From the NCBI GenBank assembly GCA_963965975.1, contig OZ014413.1:8892101-8956100 (forward strand): 64,000 bases of DNA, read 5' to 3'. This document shows, piece by piece, positions 1 through 59,749 of this stretch. This DNA is from Xestospongia bergquistia. Taxonomy: Eukaryota; Porifera; Demospongiae; Haplosclerida; Petrosiidae. The notes beneath the pieces are model-generated. The model saw only the letters and a program-made list of their open reading frames with translations, was not told the origin of the DNA and ran no database searches. Position 1 is the stretch's first letter; the number at the start of each line of letters is the position of its first letter. The translations under genes and the position numbers were made by a program.

Positions 1-276
1 CAATATTGTATATCTGGAATTGTTGACACCATATTGGTATATATACTGATGTTTACTTTCTCTGTAGTTGTGTTCTATCATATAGTGTTAGTTACTGGAC
101 AACAAGCTCGTTTTATAGGTTATATCAATGTTGTTAAAAACTCAATCAAGAAAATGACAAAAAGTCTTAAGAAATCACAACCAGTGTCACATCAAAGTCA
201 TTTTAGAGAAGAGTTGGATTCCTCATTTTTTAATGATAGCTATTCTGATTATCGTGAACCACTCATAAGTCCATAA
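1..276 (+). CDS. 3' end of a receptor-like array gene (type I), partial at window edge
   Basis: The reading frame is open from base 1 to a TAA at 274-276 and encodes the last membrane segment (FTFSVVVFYHIVLVTGQQARF) and the whole cytoplasmic tail, ending DYREPLISP. The start lies outside the window. The bases are almost identical to 11249-11525, the end of the broken copy at 8213, so this is the previous unit of the 11.25 kb tandem duplication. Because that sister copy is a pseudogene with an intact 3' half, this gene may also be broken upstream, which cannot be seen here. Confidence 0.8.
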   Translation, partial: QYCISGIVDTILVYILMFTFSVVVFYHIVLVTGQQARFIGYINVVKNSIKKMTKSLKKSQPVSHQSHFREELDSSFFNDSYSDYREPLISP

Positions 277-1542
277 CAATTTACTTGTTCTCACATTTGG
301 ACTTAATTTCATGTTAGTTACAAATTTTTAAAAGTGTATGTAGTATATGTAACTTCAATAGTTTAATGCTCACTTAATAATTTCTTTTTTATCTTTTTTT
401 TTATTTTAAAGACACTTTGTTAGCTGTTAAGGCAAAATATTTCAAATTTAATCTTCTAATGTCCTATTAATAATTTCATATTTTTTATCTTTTAAGTTAA
501 AGTCACTTGGTTTGTTGTTAAATCAAATATTTTTAACAGAATTAAAAAAGGTGAAATTTTGACTTATAATTACATTAGTAGTCTCTATAGATCACAATAA
601 AATACACTTTACATCAACTGAGTTAATTCATTCATAATATAAAACATTATGAAAGTGAAACTTGTGACACGTTATTTTCCTAGAGATATGAATACAGATA
701 CCTCAAGTTAATAACTGTTTCTCAAAACTTTGTATATTTATAAATACAACTCTTCTAAAAAAGTTTGCTTATATACTTATGTCCATTTTCTCTGTAATTG
801 TGCTCTATCATATAGTCATAATTACTGAAAAGCAAACTTGATAACATTGATTTTTGTCAATACTTAATGAAAAATCTTTTAATAAGAACTTTTAATCAAT
901 GTCACACGAGCCAATTTAAGAATAAAATCACATATGTGTTGTAGCCATAATTTAATGATATACTTGTAATTTTATAAAGCAAATTATTAGGTGCAAAATG
1001 TAATGCATACATATCACTTTTAGTGATTTTAAGTGTGGTGGGACAAATATTGGGTAAGAATGAAGCAGATTGTATACTTTGTATCATAATGGTCTAATTT
1101 TTGACAATACATATAGACAATTGCATGAGTAATTTATTAAACTTATTAATAAATTTATTAAACTGTGACCAATTGCATTGCAACCTTGTGTAACTGAAAT
1201 TAAAAGTATAATATATTCACAGATAACTAATACTTCACAGTGTGAAGTATTAGTTATCAAAATAGTGGGTTACAATAACATCGCATTAACAGATCATCAG
1301 ACATTTTGTTGTAACTGTTGAGGTGTGCTTGGAGTGACAATTACTGAGTTTTCTAAACTTTATCTGATCATTTTCCTTGGTATTTATTGTTTACATAAAC
1401 ATTTTTCTACAATTTATAAAACCTGAATGTAAGTATAAAGATGAAATGATACTTAATGTGGCAAATGAAAGTAAACAAGTTGAACTTAAAAAGTGTAGAT
1501 TTGCTTTGTAGTTTCAAGTGAATTTTTGTTTTCACTGACAAC
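277..1542. other. Intergenic stretch with family flanking blocks and a decayed gene end
   Basis: No gene is seen. From about 545 to 745 lies a 3'-flank block (starting near GTGAAATTTTGACTTATAAT) that recurs near 5575, 11790, 16820, 23995, 31285 and 41150. At 770-850 is a decayed copy of the last membrane segment of the receptor family (TCTGTAATTGTGCTCTATCATATAG). From 1260 to 1542 lies the upstream block found before other copies, with GTAAACA at 1471-1477, about 70 bases before the ATG. The whole stretch is repeated at 11526-12790 with few changes. Confidence 0.7.
1222..1258. repeat. Perfect 18-bp palindrome with 1-base loop
   Basis: The arms 1222-1239 and 1241-1258 are exact reverse complements around a single G at 1240, starting GATAACTAATACTTCACA. 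A sister flank near 47436-47452 carries only the right arm (slightly changed) in the same context, so the left arm looks like an added copy in the opposite sense. It is duplicated at 12470-12506. Confidence 0.9.
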
Positions 1543-6529: not shown

Positions 6530-7255
6530 TTGATAAGTGGCTTATGTAAGTGGTCCTCTATTACTTACTACTGATATCTATTTGCATCATAAGTGCTCTT
6601 TTGTTATAGAGTAAAATACAATATAATGTTTTGTTCAAATGTAACAATGTACATTAACATCGTCTATTTGTCATCTACTCTCAGACTTATATTGACAACT
6701 GATGAATTATATTCTATTCATTGGTAGCTAACACTGGTTTATTTGATATTTATTCTTTAAATCTAGCCAATGTTCTTTGTCTACAGATTTAGTATAATGT
6801 AGCACTCTTTTTGATTTCCATGATGAATTTAAATCTTGTATTACCTCTGTTTTTACAATGGGATGACAGAGTTATGGAAAGCTGGTCTCAGTTTACTATT
6901 TCCATGTTATCCTGTCTTTTCTGATGATAGATGTTGTCCTCATTATACTTGATCATTTTTCTTTGAAGTTTTCCAAAAGAACAACTTTATCACAATTTCA
7001 AGTAATGATTATTATTGTACACTTCTCCATTTCAAAACACGCTACTTGCACTCTTCAAACCTATCTAATTATACACTATATAAAAAATAATACTCCATTA
7101 ATAGTATGGTTCAATGATGTAATATTAAGTTGGAGAAGGTGAACACTTCGTGATAATAATATTAAAATAATAATAGTTGGTATCTTCCTACAATACCTTA
7201 CATGTTAATCAGTCTAATTGTATACTACTAGTAAGCTGTTTGTCAAAAAATAGAA
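6530..7255 (+). pseudogene. Decayed receptor-like copy: signal peptide piece joined to membrane segments 1-6
   Basis: At 6530-6590 there is a degenerate signal-peptide start (AAGTGGCTTATGTAAGTGG, with a stop). Then, with the whole ectodomain missing, 6665-7255 matches the membrane domain of intact copies: LYSLRLTLTT-like sequence at 6670, GFPLCFYNGMTELWKAGL-like at 6830-6890, and the RIAHSSVQV region near 6970. Frameshifts and stops occur throughout. This is an internally deleted relic with no coding capacity. Confidence 0.75.
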
Positions 7256-8212: not shown

Positions 8213-11200
8213 ATGAAGTGGTTTATGTTGGTAGTCCTCTTTCACTTACTACTGATATGTAGTAAATGTAATAAGGTAATCAATATTATTTCACAAGATC
8301 ATCTTCTCCAGTCATACTTGTGTCATCACTATAATTACACTGGTGATACTACTCTTCTCCTCCTGGATACTGTTTACAATGTTAGTGGTAATGGGAGTAT
8401 GTGTACCATTAATACCAACTACTCACTTATCATACAAAGTAACCATTCAATGGCTACTATTCAATGTATCTCTTCCACTTATGTTAACACTACTCATCCA
8501 ACTATTGGATTTGCTTTCACTGGAAGTAGTAATCTGACTCTACAGAGAGTGACATTTACTGGTTGTGGTGCTAACCTTACTACACTTGATAAAGAACAGC
8601 TTGACATTATTATTCCACCCACTCTCTCGTCTACTTCACACAATATCATGCTGCTGTACTGGTGTTCACTGAGATCAGCCATCTTGTTATGAGAGTTGTG
8701 AGCATACTCCATTACTATGGGTTTGCCATCGTAGCTGTTAATTTACATAAAGGTACTTTGGAGTCTATTAATATTAGTATGTCAATGAGCTTGTATGACA
8801 ATAGTGTTGGCAGTGGAGTTATATTATTATATAAAGAAATGTCTTTTAATACAAGCCTACATAAGGTAGAAATTTTGAAATCTACATTTTTACATAATCA
8901 TGAATCTATTGTCTACGATAACTTTAAATGTGTCACAGATCTCTACAATGCCTTTGTACCCATGCTATCTCCTAAACCAGTGATCAATGCTGCAGGACTT
9001 ACAATACTCTATACTCAAAATGGCACTGGAGCTCAAGTTAGCATTGAAAATTGTGTCTTTAATAAGAATTTTGGTTCTCTAGCAGGAGCAATGTTAGTAT
9101 TACATCTGAACACAATCACACACTCAAAGACGATCATTTCCAAAAATTCTGTTTTTGACACAAATGTCATTTCAAATTCTAAATGTTATGGAACTGCTAT
9201 TGTTTTTATTATGTTCTTTGATAAAGCATCCAAGTCACTGCAAATGGATACCAACCAAAACAATAAAATACATTATCCTCTGCAAGCAATTAATGTGAGC
9301 TTCACTTTTCAACAGAGTAGTCATTTAGATCGACAGATAGGTATTATATACATGTCTGTAATGAATGGTAAAAAAATGTCAGTCTCATTCTTATTTTCAG
9401 ATGTCATTTTAAAAAACAACCTGGTTTCTTCTTCTTCTGTTGCTACTTTTTTTGCAGCTTCTTACCCTCCCACTTTAGAGAACAACATGCAAATTCAAAT
9501 GAATTCTGTAAAAGTATTTGATAATAATCTATTATGCCAGTTAGTCTCTTTCATTTCTCAGATATCAATAATATAATTATTTCTGGATCTGCAGAAAATC
9601 CTAGTAACTTTTCTTTTAATATTGGTACAGTTATAGAGGCAATTCGATCTCATATTACTCTAGAGGGACATATAGTCTAAAAAATAAACAATGGCTTTAT
9701 ATTACCTATTAACTGGTGGTTTTCAGATAGGGAAATTTCACAAGTTATTAAAGACAGTAATGAATCTACTGTCATTAATGTAACTATACATACCAATGAT
9801 AACATGACTTTGATTTCTAATGGCTACATCTTATTCACAATTCCCAGTATAAGAACAACAACATTAGTTAAAATCAATTTGGAATCTTGTCCACCTGGTT
9901 TTGAATTGGATAAACACATAGGTTCTTGTGCCTGCTCACATGTTTTATTTTCCTTTGAAATTAAAGGATACACTCCTAACTGTAGTATTAATACCAGAAC
10001 ATTTAACAGACCAACAATAACATCATGGGTTGGTTCAGTACAAGTAACCAATAATACACCACCCATTTTTCTATTAGCTATATATTGCCATTATGGATAC
10101 TGTAATGTTGGTCCTAACCTTGACTTTTTTCTCTATAATAGTAAAGAAGGAAAGTTTGTACTTACCTCTACAAATTTATCACATCATTCATCATTGTGTC
10201 TTGATAACAGAGAAGGAATTTTATGCAGCAAATGTTCTACTGTTAATGGTGTTAATTACAGTGTAGTGTTTGGTTCTACAGAATGTAGACATTGTAGTAA
10301 CTGGTGGTTGTGGACACTAGTCCTCTATGCAATAGCTGCTCCCCTCCTCATTTACTTGTTATATACTCTCAGACTTACATTAACAACTGGTACACTCAAT
10401 GGAATTATATTCTATGTTCAAGTGACCAATCTTGGATTGTTAGATATTTTGTCTACTATAGGTAATCGATGCTTTTTACCGGCAAAAATTGGCATGAAAA
10501 TAGCAACTTCTTTAACTTCTATTATGAATCTGAATCTTGGTTTTCCTCTGTGTTTTTACAATGGGATGACAGAGTTATGGAAGGCTGGTTTTAGTTTACT
10601 ATTTCCACTTTATCTCTTGACAATAATTGTTGTCCTTATTATCCTCTGTCATTTTTCTCTAAGGTTTTCTAACAAAATAGCTCATTCATCAGTTCAAGTA
10701 CTGGTTACTGTTGTACATCTGTCCTTTTCAAAATTACTACTAGCAATTATTGATGTCTTTACACCTGTTCGATTATATAACAATACTATGACTGAACCTC
10801 AATTTGTTTGGTTAAATGATGGTGGTGTTACATATGGTGACACAAACCACATAAAGTTAATGATAGTAACATCAGTGACAGTTGGAATCTTTCTAATACC
10901 TTACATGTTGATAATTCTAACTGGTCGTCTACTAATTAAATGTAACAAGATAAGAGAATATCTTCGACCAATTTATGAAGCTATTCATGCTCCTTATAAA
11001 TACAACAAACAATATTGGTTTACTGCTAGACAACTCCTACTAATATTTCATAGCATCATGTATACCATGTATCGTGGCAAACATATTTTACTTCCTTTCT
11101 CTATTATTTTACCTATTTACTTTGTGTTTGTCACAGTCCAAGCTTATTTAAGACCATTTAAAAACAAGATAAAAAACCTTTTAGATCTTTCTATAATGAT

Positions 11201-11525
11201 CAATTATGGTATGTTCTTATGTACTAACTGGTACTTTATTGATATTGGCCAATTTTGTATATCTGGAATTGTTGACATCATATTGGTATATATAATAATG
11301 TTTACTTTCTCTGTAGTTGTGTTCTATCATATAGTGTTAGTTACTGGACAACAAGCTCGTTTTATAGGTTACATCAATGTTGTTAAAAACTCAATCAAGA
11401 AAATGACAAAAAGTCTTAAGAAATCACAACCAGTGTCACATCAAAGTCATTTTAGAGAAGAGTTGGATTCCTCATTTTTTAATGATAGTTATTCTGATTA
11501 TCGTGAACCACTCATAAGTCCATAA
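8213..11525 (+). pseudogene. Broken receptor-like copy with intact membrane half (type I, subfamily a)
   Basis: The signal peptide and first 140 residues are intact (8213-8630). Near 8610-8630 one base is missing where intact copies read INSTSSLVYF. The frame then continues from 8662 to 9576, with a second break near 9540-9570 at the LPASLF motif. At 9679 a TAA follows the HIV codons, and roughly 550 bases with both GGAI turns are absent. From 9700 the frame is open again to the stop at 11523-11525 and holds the NWWFS motif, the Cys-rich zone, all membrane segments and the tail ending SDYREPLISP. The 573-residue 3' frame (9804-11525) lacks a signal peptide, so I do not call it a separate gene. 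Its 3' end nearly equals bases 1-276. Confidence 0.85.
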
Positions 11526-12790: not shown

Positions 12791-15700
12791 ATGAAGTGGC
12801 TTATGTTGGTAGTCCTCTTTCACTTACTACTGATATGTAGTGAATGTAATAAGGTAATCAATATTACTTCACAAGATCAGCTCCTCCAGTTTTACTTGTG
12901 TCATCATTATAATTACACTGATGACACTACTCTTCTCCTGCTGGATACTCTCTACAATATTAGTGGTAATGGGAGTATGTGTACCATTAATACCAACTAC
13001 TCACTTACCATACAAGGTAACCAATCAATCGCTACTATTCAATGTATCTCTTCCACTTATGTTAACACCACTACCAATCCAACTATTGGATTTGTCTTCA
13101 CTGGAAGTAGTAATCTGACTCTACAGAGAGTAACATTTACTGGTTGTGGTGCTAACCTTAATACCCTTGATGAAGAGCAGCTTGACATTATCAACTCTAC
13201 CAGTTGTCTTGTCTACTTCACACAATATCATGCTGCTGTACTGGTGTTCGCTGAGATCAGTCATCTTGTTATGAAAGATGTGATGATATCCCAGTACTAT
13301 GGGTTTGCTATTGTAGCTGTTAACTTACCTATTGGTACATTAGAAGCCATTTATGTAAATGGTTCACAAGGTCTTGAAAAAGTCCGAGGTGGCTACAGTG
13401 TTGGAAGTGGAATGTTATTAATGTATCAAGATTCACCTATCACACCCTCCTTTGTTAACCAATATAAGTTAAAAATTATAGATTCTACATTTTCATACAA
13501 TTTTGCTTCCTCAGGATATGTATGTGTTACAGATCTCTACAATTCTTTTCATTACAAAGATTCTAATAAACAGATCATCTATGCTGCAGGACTTACAATT
13601 TATTACATTGGAAAAAACTCTAAAGCTCAAATTAGTTTTTTGCAATGTACCTTTAAAGTCAATATTGGTTCTGTAGCAGGAGCAATGTTAATATTACATT
13701 TAAAAACAACAAAATATTCACAGACTGTTATTAAAAATTCATACTTTGACTCAAATGGCAATATTCAAAAATGTCATGGGAGTGACATTGTGCTGTTTCT
13801 TGATGGACTATCACGATCATTATTACTTACAACCAGTGAAACATATTTTCCTCTACTGGTTGTACATACAAAATTTACATTTTCACCTGGAAGTGTTTTT
13901 ACAGATAAACAGCTAGGTGTTATTTTTATTGCTGTCATGAATTTTAAGGAGATACCAATGTGTTTCAAATTTTCTAATGTTACCTTTAAGGGAAACCAAG
14001 CATCAATATCTGGATCTTGTATCTATGCAGTTTCATATCCGTCAACAGGGACGAATAATGTCTCTTTTTTATTGGAATCTATTAAAGCATACAAAAATGG
14101 GATATTAAACATAGATGTTGTATCACCAACTTTTTTACCAGCCAGCCTCTTTAAATTTTTAAATATCAACAGAATCACAATAAATGGATCAGCAGTAAAA
14201 CCTAGTAATTTATCGTTCAACATTGGTACAGTTGTAGAGGCAATTCGATCTGATATTACTCTAGAGGGACATATAATCTTTCACAACAATACAAGTATTA
14301 ATGGAGGTGCTATTATGTTAATAGGTGATAGTGTCATTTATCTCACTCAAGGACTTCGAGCTAACTTTACAAATAACAAAGCTCTATCTAGTGGAGGAGC
14401 TATATATGATCATAGCAGTCCATTTGACAAAACACATTGTATATTTCAAGTTAACACTACACAGTATAATGATATAACAGTGTTATTGGAAAACAATAAA
14501 GCAACAGTTACTGGTAACTCTGTCTTTTCATCTAAATTATATAACTGCACCATGGTTGATCCTTATATAAATTCTACAACAGCTGCTGAAATTTACAAAA
14601 CTATCTTTAAATTTAAAGCAAACAGTACTTTTGAACTTTCTACTACTCCAATAAAGTTGACAATATGTGACTCACATAATTCTGTAATGTCATATTCATC
14701 TGATGCTTATCCTGGACAGACAATTAATTTTTCAATGGCTGCTATTGATGCTGTAGGACACCACAGTTATTCTATTATTAACATAGCAGCAGTTAGGAAA
14801 AGAAAACATTCAGCATTCACACACATTAATTGGTGGTTCTCAGAAAGAGAAGATACACAAGTTATAAGAGAAACTGATAACTGCACACTCATTAATATAA
14901 CTATACATACCAATGATCACAGCACATTGGATAAACCTGATGGTGCCCTACTCTTTACTATACCTAGTATTGCTAACATAACAGTTGTTAATATCAATTT
15001 AAAATCTTGTCCACCTGGATTTGAATTAAGTTATCTAAAAGGATCTTGTATCTGCTCACACCTACTACTAAATATAGCTGGATATACTCCTAACTGCAGT
15101 ATTAATACCAAAACATTTAAAAGACCAACTTTCACTTCTTGGGTTGGTTCAGTACAAGTTAATAATAATACACCAATTTTCCTTCTAGCTCTACATTGTC
15201 ATTATGGATATTGTAATGTTGGTGTTAACCTCAATGTTTTTCGTTACATCAACGATGGAATGTTTGTTCTTACTTCAGAGGATTTGTCAAGTTTTTCATC
15301 ATTGTGTAATAATAACAGAGAAGGGATTTTATGTAGCAAGTGTTCTACTGTTAATGGTAGTAATTACAGTGTGGTGTTTGGTTCTACAGAATGCAGACAT
15401 TGTAGTAACTGGTGGTTGTGGACACTGGTCCTCTATGCACTAGCTGGTCCCCTCCTCATTTTCCTCTTATATACTCTCAGACTTACATTAACAACAGGTA
15501 CACTCAATGGAATTATATTCTATGTTCAAGTGGCCAATGCTGGATTACTGGATCTCTTTTCAATAAAATCTAGTCAATTTTCTTTGTCAATAAACTTTTG
15601 TATGAAAATGGCAATATTCTTAATTTCTATCATGAATCTGAATCTTGGTTTTCCTCTATGCTTTTACAATGGAATGAATGAGTTATGGAAAGCTGGTCTA

Positions 15701-38870: not shown

Positions 38871-39029
38871 TTATGAATACAAGTATTAAATCACTTCTTA
38901 TATACATATCTTAATACTTTTATTTTTTGAATTGACTACGTTTTTACACCAAAGAATGTTGCCATCCCTACATAGGCATCACTACCGTGTGCCTGATAAA
39001 TTACTTTATTGCAAAGCAAACATAAATAC

Positions 39030-39370: not shown

Positions 39371-39494
39371 TAATAATTATTATTGGGTTATGGTAACATG
39401 TAATTAATGCTACAGATCAACATTATATTACTGAAAGTATGAAATAGGTAACTCTTGCTGTCACAAGCTTGTTTTCAAAATATCATCAATGAGA

Positions 39495-40461: not shown

Positions 40462-40689
40462 TAAAGTCCCTTTTATTTACTGTAGAACAGTTTATATTGT
40501 GTATAAACTATGAATATATTTAGTTATACTACTTTAATTTGATTGCAAACATATAAATAGTTATTGTTTTGTGATTTTTTAAAATTAAATTTGTAAATAA
40601 TGAAAAACTGTAATTCCCACATCTATGCATATCTTAATTCATGCTCTAAAATTAGGTAAGATTGAAATACAGTCAATGTTGGTTAATTA
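40462..40689. other. Type II 3' flank copy
   Basis: It is nearly identical to 28144-28337 up to about 40650, including a diverged copy of the 46-base repeat. It then joins a type I fragment. No gene is seen. Confidence 0.7.
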
Positions 40690-41030
40690 GCACTCTTTGA
40701 TATCTTCACACCTGTCCAATTATACAGCAGCATTATCAATAGATTAATAAAAGTTTGGTACAATGATGGCAGTGTTATATATGGGGAAGGTGAACATTTG
40801 GTGTTAATGATAGTATTATCAGTGATAGTTGGTATCTTTCTAATACCTTACATGTTAATAATTCTAACTGGTCGTCTATTAATGAAATCTAACAAGATAA
40901 GAGAATATCTTCGACCAATATATGAAGCTATCCATGCTCCTTATAAATACAACAAACAATATTGGTTTACTGCTAGACAACTACTGTTGATTTTTGTATA
41001 CATTATGTATATTACCTATCATGATAATAC
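40690..41030 (+). pseudogene. Type I membrane segments 5-7 fragment
   Basis: It matches the region from the end of segment 5 (DIFTPVQLYSS) through YGEGEHLVLMIV, NKIREYLRPIYEAIHAPY and the start of segment 7 (LLLIFVYIMYITY). At about 41030 coding sequence stops and 3'-flank sequence begins (GTGTCTGCAGCAAATATAAT, similar to 31166 onward), so the last three membrane segments have been deleted. Confidence 0.8.
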
Positions 41031-42838: not shown

Positions 42839-45800
42839 ATGAAGTGGCTATTGTTGGTACTCCTCTTTCACTTACTACTGATATGTAGTAAATGTAATAA
42901 GGTAATCAATATTGCTTCACAAGATCATCTCCAGTTATACTTGTGTCATCATTATAATTACACTGGTGACACTACTCTTCTCCTCCTGGATACTCTCTAC
43001 AATATTAGTGGTAATGGGAGTTTGTGTACCATTAATACCAACTACTCACTTACCATACAAGGTAACCACTCAATGGCTACTATTCAATGTAACTCTTCCA
43101 CTGACCACCTAACTATTGGATTTGCCTTTACTGGAAGTAGTAATCTGACTCTACAAAGAGTGAAATTTACTGGTTGTGGTGCTAACCTTATTAAACTTGA
43201 TAAGGAACAACTTGAAATTATTAACTCTACTAGTTCTCGTGTCTTCTTCACACAATATCATGCTGCTGTACTGGTGTTTACTGAGATTAGTTATCTTGCT
43301 ATGAGAGATGTGAATATATCCCAGTACTATGGGTTTGCTATTATAGCTGTTAACTTACCTAATTGTAGTTTGGATTCTATTAATGTAACTATGTCTCAAG
43401 GTATTGAAAAGGCTGCACAGCAGAAAAATAGTTATAGTGTTGGTAGTGGAGTGTTGTTAATGTATCAAGATTCACCCAAAGCCTATACAAGCCAATATAA
43501 GTTAAGAATTACAAGTTCTATTTTTTCATTTAATTTTGATTATGTAGCTAATTCAGGATATATGTGTGTTACAGATGTCTACATTTTCAAAAACAAATAT
43601 TCTAAGAAACCAGTCATCAATGCTGCAGGACTTACAATATATTACATAGGAGCAAACATCAATGTTCAAGTTCATATTCTACAATGTACTTTTGCAAACA
43701 ATGCAGGTTCTATAGCTTGAGCAATGCTGCTATTACATTTGGAATTACAAACACATTCAGGGACTGTTATTAAAAATTCAAAGTTTGACACAAATGGCAG
43801 TGATCGAAAATGTCATGGAAGTGGTCTGGTGTTATTTTTTGATACACTTTCCCATTCATCTACTAATAAAATATACCAACCTCTCCAAATAATTAATGTA
43901 AATTTTACATTTTCATTTGGAAGTATTTTAAGAGATAAACAAGAAGGTGTTGTTTATATTGCCATGATGAATGTTAAAAAAATTCCTATCTGTATCACAT
44001 TTTCTAATGTTATTTTTAAGAAAAACAAAGGTCTAATTTCTGGATCTTGTATATTTGCAGTTTCATATCCATCAGAGAGAAATAACATATCTTTTGTGTT
44101 GGAATTTATTAAAGCATACAACAATGGAATATCAAAACATGATATTGGATCATCATTTTTACCAGCCAGTCTCTTCAAATTTTTAGATATTAACAATATC
44201 ATAATAAAAGGTTTCTTAAAAAAACCCAGCAATTTTTCTTTTAACTATGGTACAGTTATACGGGCAATTCGATCTGATATTACTCTAGAGGGACATATAA
44301 TCTTTCACAACAATACAGGTATTAATGGAGGTGCTATTATGTTAACAGGAGATAGTGTCATTTATCTCACTCGAGGACTTCAAGCTAATTTTACAAATAA
44401 CAAAGCTCTATCTAGTGGAGGAGCTATATATGATCATAGCAGTCCATTTGACAAGATACATTGTATATTTCAAGTTAACACTACACAATATGATGATATA
44501 GCGGTGTTATTTGAAAACAATAAAGCAACAGTCACTGGTAACTCTGTCTTTTCATCTAAATTATATAACTGTTATATGAACAATTATAGTTGGGTTAATT
44601 CCACAAAAGCAGCAGAAATTTATAACACGATCTTCACATTTATACCAAATAATACTTTTCAACTTTCTACTACTCCAGTAAAGTTGACAATATGTTACTC
44701 TAATATACTCAATACATATGATGCTTATCCTGGAGAGACAGTTAGTTTTTCAATAGCTGCTATTAATGCTGTAGGTAATTACAGTTACTCCATTGTTTCT
44801 GTAGCTATAGTCAGGAATATAGAAACTGGGTTTACATCAGATATTAACTGGTACTTGTCAGAGAGACAGAGTACACAAGTTATAAGAGAAACTGATAACT
44901 GTACTCTCATTAATATAACTATACATACCAATGATAATAGTACATTGGATATACTCAAGTATGGTGCTCTCCTATTCACTGTTCCTGGTATTACTAATAT
45001 AACAGTTGTTGATATCACTTTAAAATCTTGTCCACCTGGTTTTGAATTCAACTCAAAAAGTGGATCGTGTATCTGTTCACATTTTTTGTTTTCGTTAAAT
45101 ATTGATGGCTACACTCCTAATTGTAGTATTAATACTAGAACATTTAACAGACCAACTTTTACTTCATGGGCTGGTACAGCGAATACAGTGAATGAAACAT
45201 CAGGTTTTCTCTTGTCTTTATATTGCCATCATGAATACTGCAATGGAGATCCTGATCTCACTGTCTTACGTTACAACAATAAAGACAAAATATTTGAAAT
45301 ATTTTCTAAAGATTTGTTAATTAATTCATCATTGTGTCTTTATAACAGAGAAGGCATTTTATGTGGCAATTGTTCTACAAACTACAGTATAGTGTTTGGT
45401 TCTACAGAATGTAGACAATGTAGTAACTGGTGGTTGTGGACATTAGTCTTTTATGCAGTAGCTGGTCCCCTCCTTATTTACCTGTTATATACTCTCAGAC
45501 TTACATTAACAACTGGTACACTCAATGGGATTATTTTCTACATCCAGATAGCAAATGCTGGCTTATATGATGTTCTTTCTATTAATGCAAGGCAATGTTC
45601 TTGGGTTGTAAAGTATAGTATGAAATTAGCACTGTTTGTAATTTCTATTTTGAATCTGAATCTTGGTTTTCCTCTATGCTTTTACAATGGAATGACAGAG
45701 TTATGGAAAGCTGGTCTCAGTGTACTATTTCCACTCTATCTTCTGACAATAGTTGTTGTCATTATTATCTTGAGCCGTCATTCTGTAAGGCTTTCTAACA

Positions 45801-46660
45801 GAATAGCACACTCCTCAGTTCAAGTACTGGTTACTGTTGTACACCTCTCCTTCACAAAATTACTACTAGCAATTGTTGACGTCTTCACACCTGTCCAATT
45901 ATACAATAGTACTATGAATAATTTAATAAACGTTTGGTTCAATGATGGCAGTGTTACATATGGAGAAGGTGAACATTTGGTGTTAATGATAGTAACATCA
46001 GTGATAGTTGGTATCTTTCTAATACCTTATATGGTAATAATTCTAACTGGCCGTCTATTAATGAAATCTAATAAGATAAGAGAATATCTTCGACCAATAT
46101 ATGAAGCTATCCATGCTCCTTATAAATACAACAAACAATATTGGTTTACTGCTAGACAACTTTTGTTAATTTTTGTGTCCATTGTTTACTCCATATTTCG
46201 AGGAAGTAGCATAGGCAAAATGTTAGTTGCTTTTTCTATCATTCTTCCTGTTTATGTCCTGTTTGTGACTTTTCAAGCTTATCTAAAGCCATTTAAAAAC
46301 AAGTTCATAAATATCTTGGACCTTTCTGTTATGATCAATTATGGTATTATACTGTGTACTAACTGGTACTTCATAACCAATAAAATGCATTATTGCATAG
46401 CAGGAATATTTGATGCCACATTTATATATGTACTGATCTTTACTTTCTCTGTAGTTGTGTTCTATCATATAGTGTTAGTTACTGGACAACAAGCTCGTTT
46501 TATAGGTTACATCGATATGACACAAAATTTAATGAGGAAATTCACCCAATGTTTCAAACATTCACAACCAGTGACACATCCTAAACATTTTGGAGATGAA
46601 TTGAACTCGTCATTTGACAATAACTATTCTGAATATCGTGAACCTCTCTTAAGTCCATAA
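42839..46660 (+). pseudogene. Nearly intact receptor-like copy interrupted by one TGA (type I, subfamily b)
   Basis: Codons 1-293 (42839-43717) give the signal peptide and the first part of the ectodomain. A TGA at 43718-43720 then stands where other copies have GGA in the motif SIAGAML. The frame continues without any further break for 978 residues to 46660 (tail SEYREPLLSP). No other lesion is visible in 3.8 kb. It may be a very recent pseudogene, a polymorphic null allele, a base-call error, or, less likely, a read-through product. Membrane and Cys-rich parts are of subfamily b (CHHEYCNGDP, LCGNCSTNYS, ECRQC). AATAAA is at 46781, and RNF212B-like terminal exon sequence follows at 46840 on the other strand. 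Confidence 0.85.
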
Positions 46661-47686: not shown

Positions 47687-50600
47687 ATGAAGTGGTTTAT
47701 GTTGGTACTCCTCTTTCATTTACTACTGATATGTAGTAAATGTAGTAAGGTAATCAATATTACTTCACGAGATCATCTCCTCCAGTCATACTTGTGTCAT
47801 CACAATAATTACACTGGTGACACCACTCTTCTCCTCCTGGATACTGTCTACAATGTTAGCGGTAATGGGAGTTTGTGTACCATTAATACCAACTACTCAC
47901 TTACCATACAAGGTAATCACTCAATGACTGTTATTCAATGTATCTCTTCTATTTATGTTAACACTGCCCATCCAAATATTGGATTTGCTTTCACTGGAAG
48001 TAGTAGTCTGATTCTACAGAGAGTGACATTTACTGGTTGTGGTGCTAACCTTACTACACTTGATAAGGGACAACTTAACATTATCAACTCTACCAGTTCT
48101 CTTGTCTACTTCACACAATATCATGCTGCTGTACTGGTGTTCACTGAGACCAGTCATCTTGTTATGAGAGATGTGAGTATATCCCAGTACTATGGGTTTG
48201 CTATTGTAGCTGTTAACTTACCTATTGGTACTTTGGACTTTATTAATATAAATGGTTCTCGAGGCATTGAAAAGACAGCTAAGTACAAAAATGGGTACAG
48301 TGTTGGTAGTGGAGTGTTGTTAATATATGAAGATCCATTGAAACTACTCTCCTATACAAACCATCATAAGATAAGAATTACAAATTCTAATTTTTCATAC
48401 AGTTTTGACTATGTAGCTTACTCAGGATATGTGTGTGTTACAGATGTCTACATTTTCAAAAAAAAAGAGTCGCAGAAACCAGTCATCAATGCTGCAGGAC
48501 TAACAATATATTACATTCGAGGAAACGTCAATGTTCAAGCTGATATATTACAATGTACTTTTGTAGACAATATTGGTTCTGTAGCTGGAGCAATGCTAGT
48601 GTTGCATTTGAAAACAAAAACACACTCACAGACTGTTGTTAAAAATTCAAAGTTTGATTCAAATGCCAGTGATCGAAAATGTCATGGAAGTGGTCTTGTG
48701 TTATTCTTTGATAAACTTTCCAGAACATCTTCTACTAGTGAAATATATCAACCTCTTAAAGTAGTTGATGTAAAGTTTACATTTTCATTTGGAAGTATTT
48801 TTAGAGATAAACAAGAAGGTGTTGTTTACATTGCCACAGTTGATGTTAAGAAAATTCCAATCTCTTTCACATTTTCTAATGTTACATTTAACAAAAACAA
48901 AGCTCTACTTTCTGGATCTTGTATATTTGCAGCTTCATATCCATCAGAGAGAAATAACATATCCTTTGTATTGGAAACTATCAAAGCGTATAACAATGGG
49001 ATGTCAAAAAAGGATGTTGTTTCAACAACATTTCTACCAGCCAGTCTCTTCAAATTTTTAGATATCAATAGAATCATAATAAATGGATCCTTACAAAACC
49101 CCAGCGATTTTTCTTTTAACTATGGTACAGTTATCCAGGCTATTCGATCTGATATTACTCTAGAGGGACATATAGTCTTTCACAATAACACAAGCAATAA
49201 TGGAGGTGCTATTATGTTAATAGGAGATCGTCTCATTCATCTCACTCGAGGACTTCGAGCTAATTTTACAAATAACAAAGCTCTATCTAGTGGAGGAGCT
49301 ATATATGATCATAGCAGTACATTTGACAAGACACATTGTATATTTCAAGTTACACAGTATGATGATATAGCAGTGTTATTTGAAAACAATAAAGCAACAG
49401 TTACTGGTAACTCTGTCTTTTCATCTAAATTATATAATTGTTACATAAACAATTATAGTTGGATTAATTCCACAAAGGCAACAAAGATTTATAACACGAT
49501 CTTCACATTTATCCCAAATAATACTTTTCAACTTTCTACTACTCCAGTAAAGTTGAAAATATATAATTCAAACAATTCTAACATGCTCAATACATATAAT
49601 GTTTATCCTGGAGAGACAATTAATTTTTTAATGGCTGCTATTAATGCTGTAGATAATTACAGTTACTCTATTGTTTCTGTGTCTGTAGTTAAGAATATAG
49701 ATACTGGGTTTACATCAGATATCAACTGGTATTTGTCAGAGAGACAGAGTACACAAGTTATAAGAGAAACTGATGATTGTACTCTCATTAATATAACTAT
49801 ACATAGCAATGATAACAATACATTGGACATACCCAAATATGGTGCCCTACTATTCACTGTTCCTAGTATTGCTAATATAACAGTTGTTGACATCACTTTA
49901 AAATCTTGTCCACCTGGTTTTGAATTAAACTCACAAAGTGGATCATGTATCTGTTCACATATTTTATCATCGTTAGATTTTGATGACTACACTCCTAATT
50001 GTAGTATTAATACTAGAACATTTAACAGGCCAACTTTTACTTCATGGGCTGGTACAATGAATGAAACATCAGGCTTTCTCTTGTCTTTATATTGTCATTA
50101 TGGATATTGTAATAGTGACCCTACCCTTAATGTCTTTCATTACAGCAGCACAGACAAAAGAATTACTATAAGTTCAAAAGATTTATCAATTAATTCATCA
50201 TTGTGTCTTTATAACAGAGAAGGTATTTCATGTGGCAGTTGTTCTACAAACTACAGCGTGGTGTTTGGTTCTACAGAATGTAGACAATGTAGTAACTGGT
50301 GGTTGTGGACATTAGTCCTATATGCATTAGCTGGTCCCCTCCTTATATACCTGTTATATGCTCTCAGACTTTTATTAACAACTGGTACACTCAATGGAAT
50401 TATATTCTACATCCAGATAGCAAATTCTGGCTTATATGATGTTCTGTCTATTAATGTTAGTCAATGTTCTTGGGTTATAAAATATAGCATGAAATTAGCA
50501 CTGTTTGTAATTTCCATTTTGAATCTGAATCTTGGATTTCCTCTATGTTTTTACAATGGAATGACAGAGTTATGGAAAGTTGGTCTCAGTGTACTATTTC

Positions 50601-51532
50601 CACTCTATCTCCTGACAATAGTTGTTGTCATCATTATCCTCAGTCGTTTTTCTCTAAGGCTTTCTAACAAAATAGCTCAATCATCAGTTCAAGTACTGGT
50701 TACTATTGTACACCTTTCTTTCACAAAATTACTACTAGCACTCTCTGATGTCTTCACACCTGACAAATTATACAACAGTACTATGAATGAATTAATATAT
50801 GTTTGGTACAATGATGGCAGCATTATATATGGAGAAGGCGAACATTTGGTGTTAATGATAATAACATCAGTGATAGTGGGTATCTTTCTAATACCTTACA
50901 TGTTAATAATTCTAACTGGTCGTCTATTAATGAAATGTAACAAGATAAGAGAATATCTTCGACCAATATATGAAGCTATCCATGCTCCTTATAAATATAA
51001 CAAACAATATTGGTTTACTGCTAGACAACTTTTACTAATTCTTTCCTCCGTTGTTTACACAATATATCGAGGAAGTAACATGACCAAGTTTTTATTCATT
51101 TATTCTATCATTCTTCCTGTTTACATGTTGTTTGTGTCTTTTCAAGCTTATCTAAAGCCATTTAAAAACAAGTTCATAAATATCTTGGATCTTTCTGTCA
51201 TGATCAACTACGGTACTATACTGTGTACTAATTGGTACTTCATTGGAAGAAAAACATACTATTGCGCTATAGGAATACTTGATGCCACATTAGTACATGT
51301 ACTGATGTTTACTTTCTCTGTAGTTGTGTTCTATCATATAGTGTTAGTTACTGGACAACAAGCTCGTTTTATAGTGTACATCAATGTTGTTCAATACTCA
51401 GTGAAGAAAATAACACAATGTTTTAAAAAGAATTCACAACCAGTAAGACATCGTAGACATTTTAGAGAAATGGACAACTCATTTTTTGATGACAAGTACT
51501 CTGAATATCGTGAGCCTCTCTTAAGTCCATAA
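47687..51532 (+). CDS. Large single-exon multipass receptor-like protein, array copy (type I, subfamily b)
   Basis: 1281 residues, intact. Start MKWFMLVLLFHLLLICSKC, then SKVINITSRDH. The ectodomain has the variable loop GSRGIEKTAKYKNGYSVGSG and the turn SNNGGAI. The Cys-rich zone is CHYGYCNSDP, EGISCGSCSTNYSVVFG and ECRQCSNWW. Small departures from the family consensus: IAQSSVQV for IAHSSVQV, and ARFIVYINVVQYS after the last membrane segment. The tail PVRHRRHFREMDNS...SEYREPLLSP matches the copies at 33704 and 55898. With its downstream RNF212B-like fragment C it forms a unit whose sister is 55898-62156, at an offset of about 8.2 kb. Confidence 0.93.
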   Translation: MKWFMLVLLFHLLLICSKCSKVINITSRDHLLQSYLCHHNNYTGDTTLLLLDTVYNVSGNGSLCTINTNYSLTIQGNHSMTVIQCISSIYVNTAHPNIGFAFTGSSSLILQRVTFTGCGANLTTLDKGQLNIINSTSSLVYFTQYHAAVLVFTETSHLVMRDVSISQYYGFAIVAVNLPIGTLDFININGSRGIEKTAKYKNGYSVGSGVLLIYEDPLKLLSYTNHHKIRITNSNFSYSFDYVAYSGYVCVTDVYIFKKKESQKPVINAAGLTIYYIRGNVNVQADILQCTFVDNIGSVAGAMLVLHLKTKTHSQTVVKNSKFDSNASDRKCHGSGLVLFFDKLSRTSSTSEIYQPLKVVDVKFTFSFGSIFRDKQEGVVYIATVDVKKIPISFTFSNVTFNKNKALLSGSCIFAASYPSERNNISFVLETIKAYNNGMSKKDVVSTTFLPASLFKFLDINRIIINGSLQNPSDFSFNYGTVIQAIRSDITLEGHIVFHNNTSNNGGAIMLIGDRLIHLTRGLRANFTNNKALSSGGAIYDHSSTFDKTHCIFQVTQYDDIAVLFENNKATVTGNSVFSSKLYNCYINNYSWINSTKATKIYNTIFTFIPNNTFQLSTTPVKLKIYNSNNSNMLNTYNVYPGETINFLMAAINAVDNYSYSIVSVSVVKNIDTGFTSDINWYLSERQSTQVIRETDDCTLINITIHSNDNNTLDIPKYGALLFTVPSIANITVVDITLKSCPPGFELNSQSGSCICSHILSSLDFDDYTPNCSINTRTFNRPTFTSWAGTMNETSGFLLSLYCHYGYCNSDPTLNVFHYSSTDKRITISSKDLSINSSLCLYNREGISCGSCSTNYSVVFGSTECRQCSNWWLWTLVLYALAGPLLIYLLYALRLLLTTGTLNGIIFYIQIANSGLYDVLSINVSQCSWVIKYSMKLALFVISILNLNLGFPLCFYNGMTELWKVGLSVLFPLYLLTIVVVIIILSRFSLRLSNKIAQSSVQVLVTIVHLSFTKLLLALSDVFTPDKLYNSTMNELIYVWYNDGSIIYGEGEHLVLMIITSVIVGIFLIPYMLIILTGRLLMKCNKIREYLRPIYEAIHAPYKYNKQYWFTARQLLLILSSVVYTIYRGSNMTKFLFIYSIILPVYMLFVSFQAYLKPFKNKFINILDLSVMINYGTILCTNWYFIGRKTYYCAIGILDATLVHVLMFTFSVVVFYHIVLVTGQQARFIVYINVVQYSVKKITQCFKKNSQPVRHRRHFREMDNSFFDDKYSEYREPLLSP

Positions 51533-53708: not shown

Positions 53709-53721
53709 CAGAAATAACACT

Positions 53722-54010: not shown

Positions 54011-54029
54011 ATTTTTGTTACGGATACAA

Positions 54030-54790
54030 GTATTAAATCACTTCTTATATACATATCTTAATACATTTTTTTTTTGAATTGACCATTTTTTATACCAAAG
54101 AATGTTGTTTACATTGGGAAATTGTCTTTGTAATAAATCAGTAATAAATGTTAAATAATATAAACCAATAATATGTTCATAAGAAACACAAGTAAAACTT
54201 CCAGCAATCATCTTAATATAATGACTGACAAGTATTGAGATATTCTGATTTGTTTGTGCAATAGTTTTCTGCCAATACATTTCAATGGACAATCTGGGCC
54301 ATTGCTACCATGTGCTTGATAAATAGCTTTATTTCACAGCAGACATAAATACTTGACATTATATTAGTGTATATATTAACTTTTGCTTTCTTTGTAGTTA
54401 GGTTCTATCATATAGTATTAGTTATTGGACAACAAGCTCGTTTCATAGGTTACATCAATGTTGTTCAATACTCAATAGAGAAAATGACACAATGTTTTAA
54501 TAAGAACTTTCAGAATTAAATTTCAGAATTAAATGACATATCTGTGATAACCACAAAAATGATGTATTACTGTATAAAATAAATTTCATATATCACATTT
54601 GTATATATATACTGATGTTTTTGTCTGTACATAGATGTGTTCTACCTTATAGTGTTAGTCACTGGACAACAAGTATTAGTTAATAATAATTATTATTGGG
54701 TTATGGTAACATGTAATTAATACTACAGATCAACATTATATTACTGAAAGTATGAAATGGGTAACTCTTGCAGTCGCAAGCTTGTTTTCA
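54030..54790 (+). pseudogene. Gene-end remnants and upstream block of the receptor family
   Basis: 54350-54510 is a last-membrane-segment and tail remnant (GTTATTGGACAACAAGCTCG). 54595-54675 is a second shorter one. 54690-54790 is an upstream-type block (GGGTTATGGTAACATGTAAT). The same order occurs at 39030-39490 and, in part, at 32510-32940. Confidence 0.65.
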
Positions 54791-54794
54791 AAAT

Positions 54795-55570
54795 ATCATC
54801 AATGAGATCTCAATTGTTTTACTTTCAGTTCTAAATCTTGGACTTGGATTTCCTCTATGTTTTTATAATGAGATGACAGAGTTATGGAAAGCTTGTTTCA
54901 GTTTACTATTTCCACTCTATCTCCTGTTAATAGTTGTTGTCCTCATTATCCTCAGTCGTTTTTCTCTAAGGCTTTCTAACAGAATAGCTCACTCCTCATT
55001 TCAAGTACTGGTTACTGTTGTACACCTCTCCTTTGGAAGATTATTGGGTGCAATTATCAATGCCTTTACACCAGCTAATGTCTATACTTCAGAACAGACA
55101 TATCATGTATGGTATTGGGATGGGTCTGTGGAATATGGTAGTAAAGGACATATTACTCTTATGGTAATCACATCATTGGTTGTCTTTCTTCTCCTTTTAC
55201 CCTATGTTCTCCTTCTATCCTTTTTTACTAAACTTCTCAGACATTAGAGATATGCCAATGAATACACAAGACCAATACTTGAAGCTATCCATGCTCCATA
55301 TAAGAATAGTAAGCAGTACTGGTTTGTAGCTCGTCTATTACTTCTCATTATGATGTTCATATTGTACAGTATTGAACCTTATGCTCAAGTTATTTACATA
55401 GTTATTGCCTCAATATTGTTCTTATTCATAATTAGGCTATGTTCAGACCATATAAGAGTAACTTTATTAACCTCTTAGACTGTTGGCTATTTTTCAACAT
55501 TATCTTTGTATACATCACAACATGGTACATGAGACATATGGAAGTAACCATTTATAGTATAGTAGCTACA
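54795..55570 (+). pseudogene. Type II membrane-domain fragment, second copy
   Basis: It starts at the same point in segment 3 as 39495 (after ATATCATCAATGAGAT). It is close to the gene at 24352 through FGRLLGAIINAFTPANVYTS and LLPYVLLL, but has a TAG at 55245-55247 (RH then stop) and a deletion in the GQAMFRPYK region near 55433. It ends abruptly at about 55570 (TATAGTATAGTAGCTA), where an inverted type I piece begins. Confidence 0.82.
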
Positions 55571-55770
55571 ATTAGTAGGCAGAACTGCATATAACCCAGA
55601 TGTAGTTACCTGGATATAATTGAATTGAGTGTACTGGTCGTTAATGTAAATCTGATAGCTTATAACAGATAGATAAGGATGGGACAAGCTACTTCATAGA
55701 GGACTAGTGTCCACAATTATCAGTTGTTACTACATTGTCTACATATTGGAGAAACAGTTCCTAACTTTGT
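55571..55770 (-). pseudogene. Inverted fragment of membrane segments 1-2 (type I)
   Basis: Read on the minus strand it matches ECRQCSNNW..LVLYAV..PLLIYLL..LRLTLTTGTLN in degenerate form, bounded by GTTAGGAACTGTTTCTCCA. The same boundary and fragment occur in direct orientation at about 29793-29990, so both come from one damaged ancestor. Confidence 0.75.
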
Positions 55771-55802
55771 GGTAACAATTGACTAATTGTTTTGTCCTAT
55801 AG

Positions 55803-55897: not shown

Positions 55898-58800
55898 ATG
55901 AATTGGCTTATGTCGGTACTCCTCTTTCACTTACTACTGATATGTAGTAAATGTAATAAGGTAATCAATATTACTTCAGAAGATCGTCTCCTCCAGTCAT
56001 ACTTGTGTCATCACTATAATTACACTGATGACACTACTCTTCTCCTACTGGATACTCTCTACAATATTAGTGGCAATGGGAGTTTGTGTACCATTAATAC
56101 CAACTACTTGCTTACCATACAAGGTAACCAATCAATGGCTACTATTCAATGTATATCTTCCACTTATGTTAACACTACTCATCCAACTATTGGATTTGCT
56201 TTCACTGGAAGTAGTAGTCTGACTCTACAGAGAGTGACATTTATTGGTTGTGGTGCTAACCTTATTACACTTGATAAGGAACAATTTGACATTATCAACT
56301 GTACTAGTTCTCTTGTCTACTTCACACAATATCATGCTGTTGTACTGGTGTTCACTGAGATCAGTCATCTTGTTATGAGAGATGTGAATATATCCCAGTA
56401 CTATGGGTTTGCTATTGTAGCTGTTAACTTACCTAGTGGTACTTTGGATTCTATTAATGTAAATTTTTCTCAAGGTATTGAAAAGGCAGCACAGCAGAAA
56501 AGTGGTTATAGTGTTGGTAGTGGAGTGTTGTTAATGTATCAAGATTCACCCAAAACACTCTCCTATACAAATCAATATAAGTTAAGAATCACAAATTCTA
56601 ACTTTTCAGACAATTTTGACAATGTAGCTTATTCAGGATATGTGTGTGTTACAAAACTCTACAATTCTTATGAATATAAATATTCTAAAAAACCAGTCAT
56701 CAATGCTGCAGGACTTACAATATTTTACATAGGAGCAAACATCAATGTTCAAATTGATATATCTCGATGTACTTTTGCATACAACGCAGGTTCTATAGCT
56801 GGAGCAATGTTGTTATTACATTTGAAAACAAAAACACATTCACAGACTGTTATTAAAAATTCAAAGTTTGTCTCAAATGGCAGTAATCGAAAATGTCATG
56901 GAAGTGGTCTCGTTATGTTCTTTGATAAACTTTCCGGAACATCTTTTACTAGTGAAATATATCAACCTCTTAAAGTAACTGATGTAAACTTTACATTTTC
57001 AGCTGGAAAATTTTTTAGAGATAAGCAAGAAGGTGTTGTTTATATTGCCATGATGAATGTTACAAAAATTCCTATCTGTTTCACATTTACTAACGTTACT
57101 TTTAGCAATAACAAAGCATTACTTTCTGGATCTTGTATATTTGCAGTTTCATATCCATCAGAGAAAAATAACATATCCTTTCTGTTGGAATCTATTAAAG
57201 CAATCAGCAATGGAATATCTAAAAATGATGTTGGATTGTCATTTTTACCAGCCAGTCTCTTCAAATTTTTAGATATCAATAGAATCATAATAAAAGGATC
57301 CTTACAAAACCCCAGCAATTTTTCTTTTAACTATGGTACAGTTATACAGGCAATTCGATCTGATATTACTCTAGAGGGACATATAGTCTTTTACAACAAT
57401 ACAGGTATTAATGGAGGTGCTATTATGTTAATAGGAGATAGTGTCATTCATTTCACTCAAGGACTTCAAGCTAACTTTACAAATAACAGAGCTTTATCTA
57501 GTGGAGGAGCTATATATGATCATAGCAGTCCATTTGACAAGACACAATGCACATTTCAAGTTAACACTACACAGTATGATGATATAACAGTGTTATTTGA
57601 AAATAATAAAGCAACAGTCACTGGTAATTCTGTATTTTCATCAAAATTATACAACTGTTATATGAATAATTATAAATGGGTTAATTCCACAAAGGCAACA
57701 GAAATTTATAACACGATCTTCACATTTATCCCAAATAATACTTTTCAACTTTCTACTACTCCAATAAAGTTGAAAATATGTAATTCAAACAATTCTAACA
57801 TGCTTGATACATATAATATTTATCCTGGAGAGACAATTAATTTTTCAATAGCTGCTATTGATGAGGTAGGTAATTACAGTTACTCTATTGTATCTGTGTC
57901 TGTAGTTAAGAATATAGATACTGGGTTTACATCAGATATCAACTGGTATTTGTCAGAGAGACAGAGTACACAAGTTATAAGAGAAACTGATAACTGTACT
58001 CTCATTAATATAACTATACATACCAATGATAACAATACATTGGATATACCCAAATATGGTGCCCTATTATTCTTTGTTCCTAGTATTGCTAATATAACAG
58101 TTGTAGACATCACTTTAAAATCTTGTCCACCTGGTTTTGAATTGAATTCACAAACTGGCTCATGTATCTGTTCACATCTTTTATCATCATTAGATTTTGA
58201 TGACTACACTCCTAATTGTAGTATTAATACTAGAACATTTAACAGACCAACTTTAACTTCATGGGCTGGTACCATAAATGAAACATCAGGCTTTCTCTTG
58301 TCTTTATATTGTCATTATGGATATTGTAATAGTGACCCTATCCTTAATGTCTTTCATTACAGTAGCAGAGACAAAAGAATTACTATAAGTTCAAAAGACT
58401 TATCAATTAATTCATCATTGTGTCTTTATAACAGAGAAGGCATTTTATGTGGCAATTGTTCTACAAACTACAGTGTAGTGTTTGGTTCTACAGAATGTAG
58501 ACAATGTAGTAACTGGTGGTTGGGGACATTAGTCCTCTATGCAGTAGCTGGTCCAACCCTTGTTTACCTGTTATATGCTCTCAGACTTTTATTAACAACT
58601 GGTACACTCAATGGTATTATATTCTACATCCAGATAGCAAATGCTGGCTTATATGATGTTCTGTCTATTAATGTTAGTCAATGTTCTTGGGTTATAAAAT
58701 ATAGTATGAAATTAGCACTGTTCATAATTTCCATTTTGAATCTAAATCTTGGCTTTCCTCTATGTTTTTACAATGGAATGACAGAGTTATGGAAAGTTGG

Positions 58801-59749
58801 TCTCAGTTTACTATTTCCACTTTATCTCCTGACAATAGTTGTTGTCATCATTATCCTCAGTCGTTTTTCTCTAAAGCTTTCTAACAAAATAGCTCACTCA
58901 TCAATCCAAGTACTGGTTACTATTGTACACCTTTCTTTCACAAAATTACTACTAGCACTCTCTGATGTCTTCACACCTGACAAATTATACAACAGTACTA
59001 TGAATGAATCAATAAATGTATGGTACAATGATGGTAATATAAAATATGGAGAAGGGGACCATTTGGTGTTAATGATAATAACATCAGTGATAGTGGGTAT
59101 CTTTCTAATACCTTACATGTTAATAATTCTAACTGGTCGTCTTTTAATGAAATCTAATAAGATAAGAGAATATCTTCGACCAATATATGAAGCTATCCAT
59201 GCTCCTTATAAATATAACAAACAATATTGGTTTACTGCTAGACAACTTTTACTAATTCTTTCATCCGTTGTTTACACAATATATCGAGGAAGTAACATGA
59301 CCAAGTTTTTATTCGTTTATTCTATCATTCTTCCTGTTTACATGTTGTTTGTGACTTTTCAAGCTTATCTAAAGCCATTTAAAAACAAGTTCATAAATAT
59401 CTTGGATCTTTCTGTCATGATCAACTACGGTACTATACTGTGTACTAATTGGTACTTCATTGGAAGAAAAACATACTATTGCACTATAGGAATACTTGAT
59501 GCCACATTTGTACATGTACTTATGTTTACTTTCTCTGTAGTTGTGTTCTATCATATAGTGTTAGTTACTGGACAACAAGCTCGTTTTATAGGGTACATCA
59601 ATGTTGTTCAAAGCTTAATAAAGAAAATCACCCAATATCTTAAAAAGAATTCACAACCAGTAAGACATCGTAGACATTTTAGAGAACTGGACTACTCATT
59701 TTTTGATGACCAGTACTTTGAATATCGTGAGCCACTCTTAAGTCCATAA
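55898..59749 (+). CDS. Large single-exon multipass receptor-like protein, array copy (type I, subfamily b)
   Basis: 1283 residues, intact. Start MNWLMSVLLFHLLLICSKC as in the chimeric gene at 24352, but the membrane domain is type I, nearly identical in its last 200 residues to 33704 and 47687 (ILSSVVYTIYRGSNMTKFLF). The Cys-rich zone reads CHYGYCNSDP, EGILCGNCSTNYSVVFG, ECRQCSNWW. The first membrane segment begins WWLGTLVLYAVAGPTLVY, with G where all other readable copies have W. The tail is PVRHRRHFRELDYSFFDDQYFEYREPLLSP. It converges with the RNF212B-like gene, whose stop is 306 bases downstream; their polyadenylation signals are about 45 bases apart. Confidence 0.93.
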   Translation: MNWLMSVLLFHLLLICSKCNKVINITSEDRLLQSYLCHHYNYTDDTTLLLLDTLYNISGNGSLCTINTNYLLTIQGNQSMATIQCISSTYVNTTHPTIGFAFTGSSSLTLQRVTFIGCGANLITLDKEQFDIINCTSSLVYFTQYHAVVLVFTEISHLVMRDVNISQYYGFAIVAVNLPSGTLDSINVNFSQGIEKAAQQKSGYSVGSGVLLMYQDSPKTLSYTNQYKLRITNSNFSDNFDNVAYSGYVCVTKLYNSYEYKYSKKPVINAAGLTIFYIGANINVQIDISRCTFAYNAGSIAGAMLLLHLKTKTHSQTVIKNSKFVSNGSNRKCHGSGLVMFFDKLSGTSFTSEIYQPLKVTDVNFTFSAGKFFRDKQEGVVYIAMMNVTKIPICFTFTNVTFSNNKALLSGSCIFAVSYPSEKNNISFLLESIKAISNGISKNDVGLSFLPASLFKFLDINRIIIKGSLQNPSNFSFNYGTVIQAIRSDITLEGHIVFYNNTGINGGAIMLIGDSVIHFTQGLQANFTNNRALSSGGAIYDHSSPFDKTQCTFQVNTTQYDDITVLFENNKATVTGNSVFSSKLYNCYMNNYKWVNSTKATEIYNTIFTFIPNNTFQLSTTPIKLKICNSNNSNMLDTYNIYPGETINFSIAAIDEVGNYSYSIVSVSVVKNIDTGFTSDINWYLSERQSTQVIRETDNCTLINITIHTNDNNTLDIPKYGALLFFVPSIANITVVDITLKSCPPGFELNSQTGSCICSHLLSSLDFDDYTPNCSINTRTFNRPTLTSWAGTINETSGFLLSLYCHYGYCNSDPILNVFHYSSRDKRITISSKDLSINSSLCLYNREGILCGNCSTNYSVVFGSTECRQCSNWWLGTLVLYAVAGPTLVYLLYALRLLLTTGTLNGIIFYIQIANAGLYDVLSINVSQCSWVIKYSMKLALFIISILNLNLGFPLCFYNGMTELWKVGLSLLFPLYLLTIVVVIIILSRFSLKLSNKIAHSSIQVLVTIVHLSFTKLLLALSDVFTPDKLYNSTMNESINVWYNDGNIKYGEGDHLVLMIITSVIVGIFLIPYMLIILTGRLLMKSNKIREYLRPIYEAIHAPYKYNKQYWFTARQLLLILSSVVYTIYRGSNMTKFLFVYSIILPVYMLFVTFQAYLKPFKNKFINILDLSVMINYGTILCTNWYFIGRKTYYCTIGILDATFVHVLMFTFSVVVFYHIVLVTGQQARFIGYINVVQSLIKKITQYLKKNSQPVRHRRHFRELDYSFFDDQYFEYREPLLSP

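Follow-up and report, generated by a model that had tools for sequence, protein, structure and literature searches.

A clustered gene family of putative cell-surface recognition receptors with exchanged ectodomain and membrane modules in the demosponge Xestospongia bergquistia

The POMP proteins of chlamydiae end in a bacterial autotransporter barrel. The sponge gene family analyzed here is similar to these POMP/Pmp proteins (TIGR01376 / PF02415) in the F-x-x-N...GGAI repeat of its ectodomain, but the C-terminal part of the sponge proteins is helical and polytopic, and the genes are located in an animal genome. A second comparison is with paired receptors, which are reported to have similar ectodomains on different output parts and to exchange sequence between gene copies (PMC5112662), with CEACAM, Siglec-11/-16 and CD300A/C as examples (PMC5112662, PMC5701461, PMC12447643). 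The sponge family likewise has similar ectodomains on different output domains, as seen in the 24352 and 33704 copies (named by their start positions), in trees and in AU tests. However, paired receptors are of the vertebrate immunoglobulin type, whereas the part swapped in the sponge is a polytopic domain, no opposed signals are known, and the widely shared part is the membrane module. In the demosponge Ephydatia muelleri, >120 metabotropic GABA receptors are predicted and tandem receptor expansions are described (PMC7385117), and to that extent it too has a large, clustered multigene receptor family; those receptors are class C GPCRs, whereas no GPCR family was among the Pfam matches listed for the family described here. 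Large receptor clusters in sponges are already known in kind (PMC7385117); what is new is that modules are exchanged on a polytopic scaffold.

The family was undescribed in the titles and abstract starts seen in searches of open PMC papers on the family and its setting, a scope that leaves subscription papers and preprints largely outside. In agreement with a previous sequence-only reading of this DNA, no described family was matched in Pfam, NCBIfam or PDB sequences beyond the POMP-type beta-helix repeat. Membrane-domain motifs of a similar kind (like GTINGLIFY and HAPYK) probably also occur in proteins that lack annotation in cnidarians, lancelets and further sponges, and if so the family itself may be old.

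Intact genes, relics and genomic setting

The window, meaning the whole stretch of 64,000 nucleotides that was analyzed, is part of contig C3 (11.48 Mb) in an assembly of 146.46 Mb in 21 contigs. It contains six intact, intronless ATG frames, all on the plus strand and 1263 to 1283 aa in length (Table 1), the number and lengths being those given by the sequence-only reading. The single architecture proposed for them was also found in six of six: a hydrophobic stretch at the N terminus is followed by an ectodomain rich in sequons, the Cys collar, the polytopic domain and, close to the C terminus, a REP motif. In DNA of 30% GC, six similar frames of such length are not due to chance. With the six proteins as tblastn queries, family matches made up 63% of the window in 47 non-redundant stretches, with relics on both strands, and so the many relics and decayed neighbours that had been noticed are real. 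The array reported at positions 1 to 59749 is present, but it is not confined to the window and continues beyond both edges. No tRNA genes were found in the window.

Table 1. Family members, relics and the module switch in the window (window coordinates).
Positions	Strand	Feature	Remarks
1..270	+	C-terminal end of neighbouring gene (locus L019)	gene intact, 1286 aa
1543..5385	+	gene	intact, single exon, 1280 aa, membrane class A
6706..7190	+	small membrane-domain relic	tblastn
8213..11519	+	relic, itself mosaic	tblastn
12791..16633	+	gene	intact, single exon, 1280 aa, class A; tandem sister of 1543 copy
17989..21521	-	relic	seven separate matches (tblastn)
23517..23690	+	small N-terminus relic (residues 1-58)	tblastn
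24352..28143	+	gene, chimera	intact, single exon, 1263 aa; ectodomain similar to 33704/47687/55898 copies, membrane domain and tail class B
26929..27045	+	switch stretch of 24352 copy	collar end and first membrane segment; three estimated points
28338..31099	+	rearranged relic	tblastn
33704..37552	+	gene	intact, single exon, 1282 aa, class A
38981..41022	+	relic, C-terminal half of class B	39922-40458 has 90% protein identity to 24352 copy
42839..46660	+	near-complete copy (tblastn match to 46657)	single in-frame TGA; 978 aa frame left at 43724-46660
47687..51532	+	gene	intact, single exon, 1281 aa, class A
54349..55743	+	relic, membrane domain of class B	54795-55433 has 93% protein identity to 24352 copy; two small minus-strand matches at its end
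55898..59749	+	gene	intact, single exon, 1283 aa, class A

The family was found in at least 120 places genome-wide, about 85 of them with long open frames, which agrees with the high copy number that had been suggested. Merging of the genome searches (37 and 97 rows, plus 14 of the 96 rows of a third search, the other 82 being judged repeats) gave 118 places, two of which were parts of one open frame, leaving 117; this count is a lower bound because the search scores the best candidates only. At least 111 of the 117 were on C3, with five on C1 and one on C4. The frame between stops reached 1240 aa or more, with a stop-free full-length match, in 86 rows (85 genes after the same correction). Three more members (L039 to L041), on C2 and C1, were found by motif and are 37 to 40% identical with the same architecture; L039 and L040 have long single-exon frames, and L041 is in two frames. 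The codon pattern for EAIH[AG]PYK occurred 127 times genome-wide compared to zero for the control, and that for NGIIFY 154 times compared to two. Dense clusters are present on C3 at 5-7.3, 8.5-8.95 and 9.07-9.27 Mb, and the family shows birth and death in tandem arrays. Two loci, L020 and L022 (C3, 5.10 and 5.06 Mb), are nearly identical and about 46 kb apart with a dS of 0.009, indicating a recent segmental duplication.

The right edge of the array is marked by a ribosomal protein L9 gene at 63336-63998 on the minus strand (Pfam Ribosomal_L9_N, E 7.3e-20), presumably encoding a mitochondrial ribosomal protein. Short Ser/Thr/Pro-rich minus-strand frames at 61441-61785 and 60055-60255 had no Pfam matches and are perhaps exons of an intron-bearing gene. 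A bacterial or symbiont origin was ruled out, as the contig that carries the genes is 11.5 Mb long, the genome totals 146 Mb, and the L9 gene is adjacent. Elsewhere in the assembly, contig C21 is the mitochondrial genome (18,997 bases, code 4 with nine TGA within cox1, 25 tRNA genes called), with atp9 at 15785-16018; among animals, mtDNA-encoded atp9 is a demosponge trait, and the host is taken as a demosponge on this basis. Cox1-like stretches with stops at 3154917-3155898 and 3199148-3200446 of the nuclear-sized contig C6 are probably nuclear copies of mitochondrial DNA.

Ectodomain, collar and membrane part

The ectodomain is longer than the 600 or so residues previously estimated, at about 715 aa (residues 20-735), and is followed by a collar of about 138 aa. 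The glycosylation proposed for it is in keeping with an excess of sequons: residues 21-870 contain 25 to 34 N-x-S/T sites per copy compared to 14.6 to 16.7 in shuffles, and the count was reached by 0, 0, 9, 0, 1 and 0 of 1000 shuffles for the six window copies. The GGAI turns of the sequence-only reading held in a looser form, in that exact GGAI occurs only twice per window protein, whereas an F/I/V/L-x-x-N...G/S-G/A/S/C motif, counted with overlapping starts, is repeated 5 to 7 times compared to 0.4 to 0.6 in shuffles. The F-x-x-N...G motif was above shuffles in all 14 ectodomains tested, and in 11 of these none of 500 shuffles reached the count (the others being L034 with 1/500, L031 with 2/500 and, the weakest, L035 with 11/500).

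The profile POMP_repeat (TIGR01376) was over its cut-off in four of six proteins. All 11 ectodomains searched gave a match to Chlam_PMP (PF02415) at E up to 10, the best being 3.3e-5, but this profile was over the Pfam cut-off in only two of the six full-length window proteins (best E 3.1e-6). Because the POMP-type repeat forms a beta-helix in known proteins, we infer that the sponge ectodomain is a right-handed beta-helix. A profile search for PDB relatives of the ectodomain gave one chance-level row (E 2.7). Nine cysteines of the collar are among the invariant columns of 13 aligned sequences (47 to 78% identical to the first row).

The membrane part is more conserved than the ectodomain, with 77 of 393 positions invariant (13 sequences) compared to 81 of 722 (ten near-complete sequences). 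Of the approximately ten membrane segments that had been proposed, ten were recovered as hydrophobic peaks but not as crossings: when the charge rule was applied, nine crossings scored best at positive-inside weights of 0.3, 0.6 and 1.0 (with seven close to nine at a weight of 1.0, 43.3 versus 43.9), and ten were best only with charge ignored. The weakest hydrophobic segment is the highly conserved RLTLTTGTxNGIIFY, which may be re-entrant, although a minor sequon at residue 930 fits another choice of the nine segments.

The YREPLLS tail was found as SEYREPLLS or FEYREPLLS in five window copies, the 24352 copy having CDNYREPMLS instead. Near the C-terminal end, REP[LMI][LIM] was present in 29 of 30 proteins, and the remaining one is truncated by the limit of its sequence stretch. 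Of the 29 uncut tails, 27 retain the Y of YREP, the other two having F (L031) or L (L039). Counted from the dileucine, the acidic residue of the tail is at -5, one position away from the -4 of the classic [DE]xxxL[LI] signal.

Searches for relatives of the membrane part were negative. No PDB relative was found by sequence and profile, a later search giving two chance-level rows (best E 0.31), and Pfam at E up to 10 gave scattered rows for 13 members (best 0.04). No viral relative was found in IMG/VR (71 pattern stretches) and no prokaryotic relative in GTDB contigs (32 pattern stretches). GPCR families were absent from the Pfam matches at E up to 1 for the six proteins and up to 10 for 13 membrane parts, a sequence-level negative, and one in which the HMMER filters drop most weak matches. 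No autotransporter family was among the Pfam matches of the six proteins, which have ten hydrophobic helix-like segments instead of a C-terminal barrel.

An alternative to a recognition receptor is a channel or transporter, in which the membrane part would conduct or carry and the ectodomain would be a gate, filter or scaffold. This is consistent with the membrane core being the most conserved part, with the polar invariants TLTTGTxNGIIFY and FPLCFYNGMTELWK, and with hydropathy giving nine or ten segments and one possible re-entrant loop. We nevertheless think a channel or transporter rather unlikely, because TRP, polycystin, ion-channel and transporter families were absent from the Pfam matches (E up to 10) listed for 13 members, TRP and polycystin families also from those of the six proteins, and because a carrier would not usually have so many copies, with ectodomains this divergent and membrane modules that are swapped. 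The membrane part may have a distant fold relation to TRP, polycystin or TRP-like channels.

Exchange between ectodomain and membrane modules

The sequence exchange between copies that had been suspected was strongly supported by separate trees, AU tests and a mosaic relic, and it was found to be modular, between ectodomain and membrane domain, which the sequence-only reading had not included. The 24352 and 33704 copies are 73 to 91% identical in all ectodomain and collar regions but 55, 25 and 24% identical in the last three (membrane and tail) regions. In these last three regions, the 24352 copy is instead 67 to 87% identical to L026-L030, and 87, 72 and 52% identical to L034 on another contig, whereas the ectodomain regions of these membrane-part matches are only 28 to 37% identical.

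Separate ectodomain and membrane trees were made from 30 proteins (28 complete members plus L039 and the cut L040); loci that were broken or incomplete were not included, nor were copies that the window had already supplied. The seven membrane domains of class B grouped in a single clade (100/100), whereas their ectodomains were scattered over the ectodomain tree, on which there were six changes of class over 26 rows (L031, L035, L039 and L040 being unscored). A single clade for the ectodomains of the six near class B members was rejected (AU p 6.0e-6), as were groupings on the membrane tree of 24352 with 33704 (AU p 3.7e-6) and of L029 with L014 (AU p 1e-16); the groups were picked after seeing the data, and so these p-values are only indicative, with log-likelihood gaps of 431 to 1499. 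In ten of ten comparisons, the switch was at residues 835-904, a conserved part that takes in the end of the collar and the first membrane segments; for the 24352 copy, the points were 866, 877 and 904 (1543-copy numbering), which, converted via the CSNWW positions, fall within 26929-27045 of the window.

Exchange also occurs at a finer scale. Only the 3' half of the relic at 8213-11519 (from 9679) matches the L019 stretch that carries the intact neighbour gene, with 98.75% identity over 2323 bases, and the unit at 271-5878 copies that at 11520-17128 (a tandem unit, 95.9% identical over 5620 bases).

Selection and possible roles

The pooled pN/pS over six disjoint close pairs was 0.48 (ectodomain 0.49, membrane part 0.41, tail 0.73). 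This value indicates purifying selection, and therefore the intact genes are constrained and probably in use. No pooled domain had a pN/pS >1, and sliding windows over eight pairs (32 in total, at most 60 codons each) did not exceed 1 either, the highest value being 0.88 on 8 synonymous changes, which speaks against strong diversifying selection. A hypervariable, positively selected ectodomain was thus unsupported.

These values bear on two further explanations. A family without an organismal role, maintained because DNA that is mobile or recombines easily is duplicated, would account for the intronless copies and many relics. We regard this as very improbable in view of the pooled pN/pS, the approximately 85 long open frames and an arrangement in tandem units rather than scattered insertions; in addition, no transposase or reverse transcriptase was noticed in the window, though without a dedicated search. 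The other explanation is allorecognition or cell adhesion, in which ectodomains would bind to one another or to a partner carried by a different sponge cell. Sponges discriminate self from non-self, and the location of at least 111 of the 117 places on a single contig, with dense clusters on C3, would fit such a role, as would exchange between copies; the ectodomain, however, has no local excess of amino-acid change, and we consider this explanation unlikely. Together with a channel or transporter, it is a serious rival.

Our own reading, to which we give somewhat less than even confidence, is that the family has expanded in demosponges and encodes cell-surface recognition receptors whose outer and membrane modules can be interchanged. 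It is based on the POMP-type repeats, sequon excess, conserved membrane part, purifying selection, REP tail, module swaps, and birth and death of copies. Counting against it are the lack of any sign of the diversifying selection that is usual in immune receptors, the absence of a known signalling motif apart from the tail, and the polytopic domain, which is equally typical of channels and transporters. In such a receptor, the right-handed beta-helix would bind a surface, which could be a microbial or food-particle glycan or another cell, and the collar would couple it to the nine-crossing domain with its cytosolic tail. The membrane module would then transmit a signal or drive uptake, with the REP[LMI][LIM] end sorting or recruiting. 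Copies would differ in binding target, and module swaps would give one binding surface a different output.

A bolder and more doubtful proposal is that of a paired-receptor-like system outside vertebrates on a new scaffold, in which beta-helix ectodomains would repeatedly be re-plugged by recombination at the conserved stretch of collar and first helix onto at least two polytopic output modules with different tails, such that one binding surface would be read differently.

It is an open problem how microbes, food and other individuals are distinguished by animals that have no adaptive immunity or nerves. The family is relevant to the way in which receptor repertoires are built by recombination when introns are absent, and, if the recognition-receptor reading is true, a clustered family of >100 genes whose binding and output halves are interchangeable would be a concrete candidate for such discrimination.
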